Origin: Thermodesulfovibrio sp.
GTDB lineage: Bacteria > Nitrospirota > Thermodesulfovibrionia > Thermodesulfovibrionales > Thermodesulfovibrionaceae
DNA length: 60,781 nucleotides
Assembly: GCA_025057595.1 (NCBI GenBank)
Contig: JANXBK010000007.1
Span: 1 to 60,781, forward strand
Direction of reading: 5' to 3'
The notes beneath the pieces were generated by a model, which saw nothing but the letters and a program-made list of their open reading frames with translations, did no database searches and was not told where the DNA came from. This document shows positions 2,146 to 59,011 of the stretch, one piece after another. The position numbers were made by a program, and so were the translations under genes. Position 1 is the first letter of the stretch. The number at the start of each line of letters is the position of its first letter.

Positions 2146-3540
2146 TTAAATTTTCTCATTTGGGAAATTTTTCCCTTTTAAGGAAGTCTCTGAGAGTCCA
2201 AATTTTTCAAGTCTATACCAGAAAGTTTTGTAGCTCATTCCAAGGAGTCTTGCTGCTTTTGCTATAACATAGTTTGATTTTATGAGAGCCTTTTTTAGGA
2301 GTTCTTTTTCAAGTTCTTCATAGTTTATTCCTTCATCAGGAATTTCTATTTCGAAGACATTTTTAGGAGAAGATAATCTTAGTTCATCCTGTATATCTTT
2401 CAATGTGATTTTTTCATTTTCGCTTATTATGATTGCTCTCTCTATAACTGTTTCTAGTTGACGAATATTGCCAGGCCAATGGTAATTAATTAATGCTTGT
2501 AAAGCTTTTTCATCAATTCCTAAAATTTTTTTATTAAACTCCTTAGAGTATTTCTCTATAAAGAAATTTACAAGTTCTGGAATATCTTCTTTTCTTTCCC
2601 TTAGAGGCGGCAGTTTAACGCTTACAACATTTAATCTATAAAAGAGATCTTCTCTAAATCTTCCTTTTATTACTTCTTCTTCAAGATTTTTATTTGTTGC
2701 AGCAATTATTCTCACATCTACTTTTATTGTTTCTTTGCCTCCTATTCTTCTTATCTCTTTTTCTTGAATAACTCTAAGTAGTTTAGATTGAATTGAGAGA
2801 GGAATTTCAGCTATCTCATCTAGAAACAAAGTTCCTTTATTTGTGGCTTCTATAAGTCCGATTTTACGAGAGTTTGCTCCTGTAAAGGCACCTGGTTCAT
2901 AACCGAAGAGTTCACTTTCAAGTAAAGTTTCGGGAATTGCTGCACAGTTTATAGCGGTAAATGGATAGTCTTTTCTTTGAGAGTTATAGTGAATTGCTTT
3001 TGCTATTAATTCCTTACCTGTTCCACTTTCTCCATAAAGAAGAACAGTTGCATTCGTGGGTGTTACTTTTTTGATAATTTCAAGAATTTGTAATATCTTT
3101 TTTGATTTTCCTACAATTCCTTCTATCTTAAATTTTTTGTAAAGCTCTTCCTTTAATCTTAAGTTTTCTTTTATTAAATTAATTTTTTCTTCAGCTTTTT
3201 TAATTGTTATAAGAAGAATTTCCTTATCAAGAGGTTTTGGTAAATAATCAAAAGCCCCTTTTTTTATTGCATCTACTGCAGAGGAGATTGAACCGAAGGC
3301 AGTGATTACAATCACAAGTGGTTTCAAAGGATGCTCAGGTAAATAGTTTATAATTTCTATTCCATTTTGATTACCTAATTTTAAGTCAGTAAGAATTATC
3401 TCAGGTGAAAACTTTTCTAATATCTCCTCTGCCTCCTCTAAACAGGAGGCTGTAAATACATTATAGTTTTCTTCTGAAAGAATTGTTGAAAGAATCTCTC
3501 TTTGTAAAGGTTCATCGTCTATTATAAGAATTTTTGTCAT
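2146..3540 (-). CDS. NtrC/ZraR-family sigma-54-dependent response regulator
   Basis: 464 residues in the classical order. The receiver domain (1-120) has acidic pocket DDE at 8-10, phospho-acceptor Asp52 and Lys102. The AAA+ domain has Walker A GESGTGKE at 170-177, the sigma-54-contacting GAFTGA loop at 217-222 and Walker B LFLDE at 238-242. A Fis-type helix-turn-helix lies near 425-455 (AKAARLLGMSYKTFWYRLEKFG). The gene follows its kinase by 6 nt. The product should open sigma-54 promoters, and one sits just downstream in front of the exported OB-like gene. The arrangement resembles ZraS/ZraR with ZraP, but the signal is unknown. Confidence 0.9.
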   Translation of the reverse strand: MTKILIIDDEPLQREILSTILSEENYNVFTASCLEEAEEILEKFSPEIILTDLKLGNQNGIEIINYLPEHPLKPLVIVITAFGSISSAVDAIKKGAFDYLPKPLDKEILLITIKKAEEKINLIKENLRLKEELYKKFKIEGIVGKSKKILQILEIIKKVTPTNATVLLYGESGTGKELIAKAIHYNSQRKDYPFTAINCAAIPETLLESELFGYEPGAFTGANSRKIGLIEATNKGTLFLDEIAEIPLSIQSKLLRVIQEKEIRRIGGKETIKVDVRIIAATNKNLEEEVIKGRFREDLFYRLNVVSVKLPPLRERKEDIPELVNFFIEKYSKEFNKKILGIDEKALQALINYHWPGNIRQLETVIERAIIISENEKITLKDIQDELRLSSPKNVFEIEIPDEGINYEELEKELLKKALIKSNYVIAKAARLLGMSYKTFWYRLEKFGLSETSLKGKNFPNEKI

Positions 3541-54917: not shown

Positions 54918-55427
54918 ATGCATCCTTATGTTGAGTTAGCAAAAAAGACTGTAGAGGAGTTTATAAAATTTGGAAGAATTCCGGAAAAACCAGCAGAAAT
55001 TCCTGAAGATATGAAAAGGAAGGCTGGAGTTTTTGTTTCAATAAAGAAGAAAGGGAAGCTTCGTGGATGTATTGGCACTTTTTTACCTGCCACTGAAAAT
55101 ATATACAATGAGATAGTAAGAAATGCAGTTGCTGCTGCAACCGAAGATCCTCGTTTTCCTCCTGTATCTGCTAATGAGCTTCATGAGCTTGAATACTCAG
55201 TTGATATTCTAAGCCAACCACAACCTGTAAAAAATCTTGATGAGCTTGATCCGAAAAAATATGGAGTTATTGTAGTTAAGGGATGGCAAAAGGGATTACT
55301 TCTTCCAGATATAGAGGGAGTAAACACAGTTGATGAGCAGTTAGCAATAGCTAAGATGAAAGCCGGTATATCTCCATATGATTCTGATATAGAGATATAT
55401 AAATTTACTGTACAACGCTATAAGTAA
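54918..55427 (+). CDS. AMMECR1-domain protein
   Basis: 169 residues covering the whole AMMECR1 domain: [37 protein letters not shown] (with the family LRGCIG motif), [26 protein letters not shown] and [36 protein letters not shown]. The function is unknown across life; bacterial copies often sit beside radical SAM and Memo genes, not seen here. Its 3' end overlaps the convergent hflX by 23 nt. Confidence 0.92.
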
Positions 55428-57042
55428 ATATTTCGCTCCATAGTTTGTTTTTTATCTCCTCAACAAGGGGTAGAAGAGTATCCTTATTAATTGCTGAAAT
55501 ACCAATTGCATTATATCTACGACATATCTGTCTTACTTCTTCAGGAGAAACTCTGTCAATCTTATTAAAAACAAGAATTTTTGGTTTTTTATCAAGATTA
55601 AGCTCTTTAAGAATTTTATTTACTGAGTCAATATGATTTTCAAACTGTGGATTTGATATATCAACAAGATGAATCAGAAGATGAGCATCTTCAAGCTCTT
55701 CAAGCGTAGATTTAAAAGCAGCTACAAGATCTTCAGGTAAATCTCTTATAAAGCCTACGGTGTCAGTAATTATTATCTGTCTGTCTTCAGGAAATCTAAG
55801 TCTGCGCGAAGATGGATCAACAGTAGCAAACATTTTATCTTCAACAAAAACTGAGCTTTTTGTAAGAGTATTAAGAAGTGTTGATTTTCCAGCATTTGTA
55901 TAGCCAATTATAGACACTATAGGAATTCCAATTTCTTTTCTTTTTTTTCTTCTTTGCTGTCTTGCTAAAGCAATTTTTTTAAGCTCTGTTTCAAGATGAT
56001 GAATTCTTTCCTTTATTCTTCTACGGTCTATCTCAAGTTTTGTTTCTCCAGGACCTCTTCCACCAATTCCCCCAGCAAGCCGAGACATCGCTGTGCCTTT
56101 GCCTACAAGCCTTGGAAGCATATATTTCAATTGAGCAAGTTCAACTTGAACTTTTCCCTCAGCTGAATGGGCTCTTTTTGCAAATATGTCAAGAATTAGT
56201 TGACTACGATCTATTACTTTAAGCTCTGTAATCTCTGAGATTGCTCTTATTTGAGATGGAGTTAGATTTTGATCAAAAACTAAAAGTGTGGCTCCCATAT
56301 CCATTGCCTTTATGATTAACTCTTTGAGTTTTCCCTCTCCTAAAAGATATTTAGGATTAATCTCTTTTACCCTTTGAATGATTTTGTCTATTACTACTAA
56401 ATCTGTGGAATTAGCAAGCTCTTCTAATTCTGCCATGTGTTCTTCAAGCAGATACTTTGGTGCATTAGATACACTTATAAGAATTGCTCTTTCTCTTTTG
56501 TCTTCCATATCTACTACTCTTGCTCTCAGCATCTCCTCTTCAAGATTAGTTATAAACTCTTTAAAATTCATTCTGAAGCTATAAAGATTAGATGAGATAA
56601 TCTCATACTGTTTATCATTACCCAGTGGAAGCAAATAAGCTACATAAATATTTTCGGGCAGGCCTTTTTCATGAGTTAAAACCACCATTAAATCAAATCT
56701 AAGAAGTCTCAAATCAGTAATATCTTCTCTGTTTGGTTGCTCTTTGTTTAGGTGGGTATGTATATATCTTAAACCTCTTAGTGGTTTTCTGCCCAATGGG
56801 AAATCATTAAGCTCTGGAAGCAAGATAGATTGTGCTGTTCCAACAACTACATGAGTTACAGTGCCTGACCTGTCAACTAAAACTCCTATTTGTTTATTTG
56901 ATTCGTAAGAGAGAGAGCATAGAGATTTTGCTAAATCAAAAGTTAAAACAATATCTTGAGGTTGTTTTTTTCTATAGATTCTTTCTAAGCTATGAATTAA
57001 ACTTTTTTTAAGTCCTAATGTATTACCATAAACTTTCGCTAT
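55405..57042 (-). CDS. hflX: GTPase HflX, apparent AUA (non-AUG) start
   Basis: About 545 residues if started at ATA 57042, read as [14 protein letters not shown]. HflX N-domain, glycine-rich linker [20 protein letters not shown], and G domain: G1 [10 protein letters not shown]3 DTVGFI, G4 NKID. Splits hibernating or stalled ribosomes. The frame is open from a TGA at 57064-57066 with no ATG, GTG or TTG until TTG 56823. The ~73 codons in between encode the conserved N-domain ([29 protein letters not shown]). AAAGGAGG lies 10 nt before ATA 57042. A truncated call from 56823 would lose this domain. Confidence 0.8.
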
Positions 57043-57097
57043 CTTAAGACAACCTCCTTTATTTCAAAATATCAAAAAATACCAAATTTTCTCAAAT

Positions 57098-59011
57098 TTA
57101 GATAAAGAAGGACAAAAAAATCTTAGATACAAAAGCTAAAATTAGAGCTACCAGAAGAGTAATTACTGTTATAATTAACATTTTCTTTATACCACACTCT
57201 TTTATTAATGCTCCGATAGTTCCTACACAGGGCATATAAAAAACTGTAAATACAGTGAAAACAATTAATTGAATATTACTCATTACTGCAGAAAGATCTG
57301 TGGTATGCATTGCCTGAAAAAGCATAATCATTGAAAGCTCCTTTCTTAAAATTCCAAAAAGAAGGGTTATTCCCACTTGTTCAGGTAAACCAAGTAATAA
57401 ACTAACGATAGGAGAAAGAAACTTGTTTAAAAAGATGTCAACTTTCAAATACTCAAGTAAACTTAAGGTGATACTGCTGACGACTAAAAGAGGCCAGGCA
57501 ACAGTGATAAAATCCTTAAGTCTAAGCCATGTTTTCATATATACATTTTTAAGCGTAGGAGCTCTCAAAGGCGGAATTTCCATTATTAGTCCGGGGGTTA
57601 CCTCTGGAGCAAATTTTGTTAAAATTGCTCCTAAAAGCATAATTATTAGGATATTAAAGATATAGACAGCTGCAACCGCGGTTCCTCCGATAAAGGCTCC
57701 AACTATTCCAAATATTACAGATGTTCTTGCTGCACAGGGAACAAAAACAGATAAAGCCGCAGTAATAAAACGATCTCTCTGTGATTCAAGTATTCTTGTT
57801 GCCATTACTCCAGCAACATTACAACCATAGGATACTACGAAGGGTAGAATACTTTTTCCGTGAAGTCCGATTCTGTGCATTACTGTATCCATTAAAAAAG
57901 CCATTCTTGGTAGGTATCCGATATCTTCAAGAATTGTTAGACCAATAAAAAAGGGTATTAAATAGGGAATAGCAACACCCATTCCTCCTGAAAAGCCTTC
58001 AAGTAGACCTTTAATTAAAAAGAAGCCTAAAGAGCCTTCTTTTATTATTGATGGAAGCTTTTCTATAGCTAATTCAAATAAACTAACAATAGGTTTTTCA
58101 ACTATTTTCCCAACTTCAAAAACTAAAAAAAATATTCCAAAAATTATAGAAAACAGTAGAGGATATCCTAAATACCTATTTGTAAGAATGTCATCTACTT
58201 TTTCTCTTAAAGTTTTTAAAGGCTCTCCTATTTTTGTTACTTCTTCAAAAATATTCATTGTTAAGGCATGTCTTTCTGAGGAAATCACCATGTCTGTATC
58301 TCTACCATGGGTTATTTTAATTTCCTCTCTAATGTGATTGATTTTTTTTAGGATCTCAGAGTAACTTTTAACTCCTTCAAACAACTCCTCATCACCTTCA
58401 AGGAGTTTCACAGCTATGTATCGTCTTGGAAGATTTTTAAAGAAATTTTTAGGAATCGTTCTCTCAATCTCTTCGATTCTTTCTTCTATGTCTCTATGAA
58501 AAAATTGAATTTTTGGGATTAATTTTTTTTGATAAACCTCTTTAGCAGATACAAAGATTTTGTCAATGCCTATTCCTTTATTTGCGATAGTCTCTATTAC
58601 TGGTACACCAAAGATTTGAGAAAGTTTTTCTGTATCTATCTTAAGTCCTTTTCTTCTTGCTTCATCAATCATATTTAAACATATAACCATCGGAACTTGA
58701 AGCTCAGTAAGCTGAAGAGTAAGTTCAAGGCTTCTTGAAAGAGTAGAGGCATCGATAACATTAATTACAACATCAGCCTGTCCCGAAAGAATATATTTTC
58801 TTGCTTCAAACTCTGCTTTGTCTATTGCTGTAAGAGAATAAATTCCTGGAAGATCTACTATTTCAAAGATGTCCTCACCGACTTTTACTTTACTTATTGT
58901 ATAATGAACTGTTTGTCCTGGAAAGTTTGCTGTTATTGTTTTATAGCCAGCAAGTCCATTAAAGAGAGTGCTTTTTCCTGCATTGGGCTGCCCTATAAAG
59001 GCTATTTTCAT
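57098..59011 (-). CDS. feoB: Ferrous iron transporter FeoB
   Basis: 637 residues. Cytoplasmic G domain: G1 GQPNAGKST (7-15), switch FPGQTVHYT, G3 DLPGIYSL, G4 NMID (~120). Helical GDI-like spacer ~165-265. Membrane domain with ~8 helices including Gate motifs (PFVVSYGCNVAGVMATRILES and VFVPCAARTSVIFGI, LLFGILRKELSMIMLF). Fe2+ uptake across the inner membrane. Shorter than E. coli FeoB, as usual outside Proteobacteria. Coupled to feoA by 4-nt overlap. Confidence 0.95.
   Translation of the reverse strand: MKIAFIGQPNAGKSTLFNGLAGYKTITANFPGQTVHYTISKVKVGEDIFEIVDLPGIYSLTAIDKAEFEARKYILSGQADVVINVIDASTLSRSLELTLQLTELQVPMVICLNMIDEARRKGLKIDTEKLSQIFGVPVIETIANKGIGIDKIFVSAKEVYQKKLIPKIQFFHRDIEERIEEIERTIPKNFFKNLPRRYIAVKLLEGDEELFEGVKSYSEILKKINHIREEIKITHGRDTDMVISSERHALTMNIFEEVTKIGEPLKTLREKVDDILTNRYLGYPLLFSIIFGIFFLVFEVGKIVEKPIVSLFELAIEKLPSIIKEGSLGFFLIKGLLEGFSGGMGVAIPYLIPFFIGLTILEDIGYLPRMAFLMDTVMHRIGLHGKSILPFVVSYGCNVAGVMATRILESQRDRFITAALSVFVPCAARTSVIFGIVGAFIGGTAVAAVYIFNILIIMLLGAILTKFAPEVTPGLIMEIPPLRAPTLKNVYMKTWLRLKDFITVAWPLLVVSSITLSLLEYLKVDIFLNKFLSPIVSLLLGLPEQVGITLLFGILRKELSMIMLFQAMHTTDLSAVMSNIQLIVFTVFTVFYMPCVGTIGALIKECGIKKMLIITVITLLVALILAFVSKIFLSFFI

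Follow-up and report, generated by a model that had tools for sequence, protein, structure and literature searches.

In a heat-loving Thermodesulfovibrio bacterium, translation of hflX, the gene of a ribosome-splitting GTPase, probably begins at a genuine but weak AUA codon behind a strong Shine–Dalgarno (SD) sequence, an arrangement of the infC kind that would keep HflX low and probably couple its synthesis to initiation factor IF3. The AUA start itself, as judged by alignment with relatives, is real and conserved and not an assembly error. infC is the textbook case of the start codon as a regulatory device, and to our knowledge conserved additions to this type of regulation are few. In the following, AUH denotes AUA, AUC or AUU, and 'usual' start codons are ATG, GTG and TTG; the window is the whole stretch of 60,781 nucleotides that was analysed (Thermodesulfovibrio sp., contig JANXBK010000007.1).

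The hflX start region

hflX lies on the minus strand of the window in a frame that runs uninterrupted from 57063 to the stop codon at 55405–55407 and is closed on the 5′ side by an in-frame TGA (57064–57066). The initial annotation had described this frame as lacking a usual start codon for 80 codons, and re-reading the sequence confirmed that ATG, GTG and TTG are absent between the TGA and TTG 56823. The strong SD that it placed 10 nt before ATA 57042 is likewise present, as AAAGGAGG at 57060–57053 (minus strand), with an anti-SD duplex energy of −12.3 kcal/mol and with 10 nt separating its last G from the A of the ATA. From the predicted AUA initiation codon (57040–57042, minus strand), the coding sequence (55405–57042, minus strand) specifies a protein of 545 amino acids. 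The 5′ neighbour feoB (57098–59011, minus strand), outside the feature, ends 55 nt before the AUA.

Two other ways of starting hflX were considered and rejected. The AAG just before the AUA, whose distance from the SD would be the modal one, varies among relatives (AAA, AAT, AAC or GAC) and is a TAA stop in one of them (L013). Readthrough from feoB would arrive in a different frame, and a further relative (L037) has an overlapping purE-like gene as 5′ neighbour in place of feoB, with the AUA retained. The TAA of this purE-like gene ends one base before the hflX ATA (L037:2502-3003), a junction that suggests translational coupling.

Conservation of the AUA within Thermodesulfovibrio

Our same-genus set comprised 13 genomes holding the hflX 5′ end, including the source genome, a fragmented assembly (1.17 Mb, 72 contigs) with an estimated completeness of 72%, a quality that might favour reading the ATA as a miscalled or misassembled ATG. 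The codon aligned with the start is nevertheless ATA in all 13 independent genomes and a usual start codon in none, with a contig of Thermodesulfovibrio sp. N1, an isolate record carrying no MAG label, among them, while ATC or ATT occupies the site in other relatives. This comparison of close relatives, proposed as a check in the initial annotation, excludes a sequencing error, and we give the error reading practically no credence. An altered code in which AUA stands for methionine, or a special initiator tRNA, has nothing to recommend it beyond the start codon itself and is vanishingly improbable. Aligned codon by codon, the 13 genes share 27 invariant isoleucine columns, of which only column 1 is ATA throughout; at the other 26, AUA interchanges freely with AUU and AUC, and AUC and AUU also serve at the same hflX site in relatives. 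As far as alignments can show it, selection maintains the AUA codon of hflX throughout Thermodesulfovibrio, and these comparisons, together with the coding conservation that follows, support the non-canonical initiation proposed initially.

The codons following the AUA evolve as coding sequence. For codons 2–73, dN/dS is 0.05–0.16 in five closer pairs, comparable to the remainder of the gene; they are under purifying selection and hence translated. An in-frame TAA stands immediately 5′ of the ATA in four relatives (L013, L020, L043 and L046), so that translation cannot begin further 5′ there. These data bear on the possibility that translation starts downstream at a usual codon, leaving the 5′ part untranslated or restricted to a minor isoform. 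The first usual codon 3′ of the AUA, TTG 56823 (56821–56823, minus strand), would, if used, remove a conserved domain; it has no SD and its position is not conserved. In relatives the first usual codon falls at codon 37, 55, 56, 74, 83, 102 or 111 depending on the species, and is therefore not a conserved start. Another candidate for a downstream start is the ATG at codon 171 (56530–56532, minus strand), which would yield an HflX of classic length, lies just 5′ of the recognized core beginning at residue 185, occurs in 13/13 same-genus genes and is preceded by GAAGAGGAG in the window. Met 171 is, however, not conserved beyond the group and in most cases has no SD before it, and a downstream start would leave unexplained both the coding evolution of codons 2–73 and a 184-residue domain that is conserved across the sampled phyla with 12 invariant residues. 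We consider it highly improbable as the principal start; codon 171 is a possible internal start for a minor short isoform.

An additional N-terminal domain

The 545-residue protein scores 457 bits with the NCBIfam model TIGR03156 (GTPase HflX; cut-off 216.75), and PF13167, PF16360 and PF01926 are all above their gathering thresholds; its score against NF008280, the model of E. coli type HflX, is 317 bits, below the cut-off of 441. The initial annotation had taken the 5′ stretch for the N-domain of HflX, an assignment that did not hold: the TIGR03156/PF13167 core begins only at residue 185–200 of 545. The canonical GTPase core spans residues 185–533 (55444–56490, minus strand), and residues 1–184 (56491–57042, minus strand) are an additional domain, not the usual HflX N-domain. 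This domain, to which codons 2–73 with their low dN/dS belong, matched no Pfam model and is conserved over the phyla sampled, with 12 invariant positions in 52 sequences, including H95, H97 and D107.

An AlphaFold2 model of residues 1–184 is confident (pLDDT 91), and its best Foldseek matches in the PDB are mostly MPN/JAMM proteins, at E values of 0.001–0.02 and TM-scores of at most 0.56. Relative to the JAMM zinc motif (Glu, H-x-H, S-x-x-D), H95-x-H97 and D107 are invariant; Ser is not retained at its position, and no counterpart of the Glu was found. The predicted fold resembles JAMM/MPN weakly, and residues 1–184 are a likely candidate for a diverged JAMM-like domain.

AUH starts and strong Shine–Dalgarno sequences across phyla

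A survey of 118 distinct long HflX genes found ATA, ATC or ATT at the start site in 82, ATG, GTG or TTG in 33 and a possible CTG start in 3. In 65 of the 82 AUH genes, no usual start codon occurs between the site and the nearest in-frame stop on its 5′ side (ATA 37, ATC 18, ATT 10). AUH starts occur in Nitrospirota, Acidobacteriota, Gemmatimonadota, Deferribacterota and several lineages labelled Deltaproteobacteria, the labels being taken from record titles and partly unreliable; nearly all long hflX genes with a usual start are from Desulfobacteria. On a FastTree phylogeny, three changes between AUH and usual starts suffice, against about 29–31 with shuffled labels, on a tree in which some long branches are unsure and which, being unrooted, does not give the direction of change. 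Three Nitrospirota loci, L018 and L019 (G021, G043) and L277 (G081), have a TTG or ATG two codons 3′ of the AUH position and are apparent switches to usual start codons.

The AUH starts are also set apart by their SD sequences. Median anti-SD pairing is −10.0 kcal/mol at the 82 AUH hflX starts, compared with −3.9 kcal/mol at ATG starts of neighbouring open reading frames and −2.7 kcal/mol at usual-start hflX orthologues (Mann–Whitney p about 1e-25 and 1e-16, respectively, for sequences that are related and thus not independent). Within the limits of sequence data, AUA, AUC or AUU with a strong SD is shown to be held across most of the long-HflX lineages sampled. The spacing is a weakness of the case for the AUA start: it is 9–10 nt in most Thermodesulfovibrio hflX genes, as against a genome mode of 6–7 nt, and 10 nt lies in the tail of the range. 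A structured autocontrol leader was rejected, as RNAalifold found no consensus structure in 13 hflX leaders and single-sequence folds fell mostly inside the range of shuffled sequences.

hflX and infC in a two-genome scan

The scan set 1.6 Mb of one Thermodesulfovibrio genome against the window and 0.8 Mb of a second genome of the genus. It retained 760 gene pairs, and in 531 of these the identity was 60% or more across 80 or more residues. Coding conservation extended clearly 5′ of every usual start codon in hflX (ATA), infC (ATA) and rplJ (CTG), a lower bound, since a usual codon close to the actual initiation site would hide a gene from the scan. Two other matches, recognized from their sequences, are prfB with its frameshift and selD with its selenocysteine UGA, both known exceptions, and the rest of the listed matches are short and, by inspection, unlike coding extensions. 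Among the 531 well-aligned pairs, the AUA-start genes were thus hflX and infC, the gene for IF3, only. The parallel with infC drawn in the initial annotation gains from this result: infC of these genomes itself starts with AUA, and hflX is the sole other AUA-start gene in the scan. Over the 30 Nitrospirota loci in which we read the infC start, it is AUA in 29 and AUC in 1. Desulfobacteria combine AUA in the infC genes read with a usual start in hflX, from which it follows that the state of hflX does not simply track a change in the initiation machinery, and also that the link to IF3, if any, is not universal.

A weak start proposed to be under the control of the initiation machinery

In the mechanism we favour, the strong SD would recruit the ribosome to AUA 57042, where the ordinary fMet initiator tRNA would read AUA despite a mismatch at the third base, and the protein would begin M-A-K-V-Y-G-N-T. 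Weak pairs at the third base are excluded by IF3, and EF-G and RRF work to the same effect in vitro (PMC10158994). Since AUH starts would have a small fraction of the efficiency of AUG and be rejected by IF3, HflX synthesis should be low while IF3 is plentiful and rise when there is little free IF3 for the 30S subunits present. HflX acts under stress to split 70S ribosomes, and IF3 then keeps the 30S apart (PMC9067457), and the ribosome-splitting factor and the anti-association factor, whose gene also starts with AUA, would in this way come under one shared control. The pattern suggests that hflX may be throttled by the initiation machinery itself. A bolder proposal, which we find plausible without leaning towards it, is that AUH initiation discriminated by IF3 governs a second gene, hflX, in several phyla, and that hflX and infC together form a circuit for subunit splitting and anti-association that senses the ratio of free IF3 to 30S subunits. 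HflX might also lower its own initiation directly, which is conceivable because EF-G and RRF, with IF3, suppress mismatched initiation in vitro (PMC10158994).

The main rival accepts the AUA as the start and holds that it merely sets a fixed low level of HflX, with no feedback from IF3; low but unregulated expression would leave the same sequence pattern. Non-AUG starts reduce yield generally (PMC13009471), E. coli hflX starts with TTG, and the usual-start orthologues of Desulfobacteria, which have no SD (median −2.7 kcal/mol), would represent another route to a low level, which suggests that a low HflX level may be the common aim. Against this, a merely low level could drift to GUG or UUG, or to a weak SD, with a frequency above that implied by the three changes among 118 genes, and it is AUH with a strong SD that is specifically retained, as in infC, with hflX and infC the sole AUA genes in the scan. 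We regard a fixed low level as unlikely, although a serious contender, and favour a weak AUH start that is probably coupled to IF3.

Relation to known non-AUG starts

The closest known system is infC (AUU in E. coli, AUA in Staphylococcus aureus), which shares with hflX a conserved near-cognate AUH start behind a strong SD and a product that keeps ribosomal subunits apart, and which has AUA in the present genomes too. The two differ in that IF3 autocontrol of infC in E. coli was demonstrated by experiment (Butler et al. 1986/1987, as cited in PMC13009471 and PMC1780047), control of hflX by IF3 being proposed here by analogy, and in that it is not HflX that reads the codon. In S. aureus, infC (AUA), ccpN (AUA) and cvfC1 (AUU) have extended SD sites, and the non-AUG starts tested there yielded, in poor medium, about 10% of the output obtained with AUG (PMC13009471). 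ccpN and cvfC1 resemble hflX in their conserved non-AUG start with an extended SD, the output being lower than from AUG (PMC13009471), but they are different genes whose conservation was reported among staphylococci, as compared with several phyla for hflX. E. coli pcnB also has an AUU start, which limits its expression (Binns and Masters 2002, as cited in PMC1780047), but is a single enzyme gene. For lepA, like hflX the gene of a ribosome-associated GTPase, an AUU start was proposed in Borrelia and Bacillus licheniformis (PMC1780047); that proposal came from the annotation of two genomes, and broad conservation is not reported in PMC1780047.

We found no report of a non-AUG start for hflX in the literature searched, most subscription papers lying outside it. 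An AUH start kept in several phyla for the gene of a ribosome-splitting factor opens to testing the question whether IF3 has control targets beyond its own gene. There is a practical side too, as gene callers restricted to ATG, GTG and TTG would in many genomes overlook hflX or call it too short, and lose a whole conserved N-terminal domain.

Possible CTG starts

CTG was encountered at two kinds of locus. A small clade of long hflX genes (L059, L095 and L096) has a conserved CTG behind a strong SD at the hflX site, neither an AUH nor a usual start. In rplJ, which encodes ribosomal protein L10, a CTG lies behind GGAGG (locus L111; G012:C1, about position 3451, plus strand), and a CTG was present in 7/7 genomes matched by pattern search (G002, G003, G004, G005, G007, G008 and G009); rplJ of Thermodesulfovibrio appears to start at this CTG.
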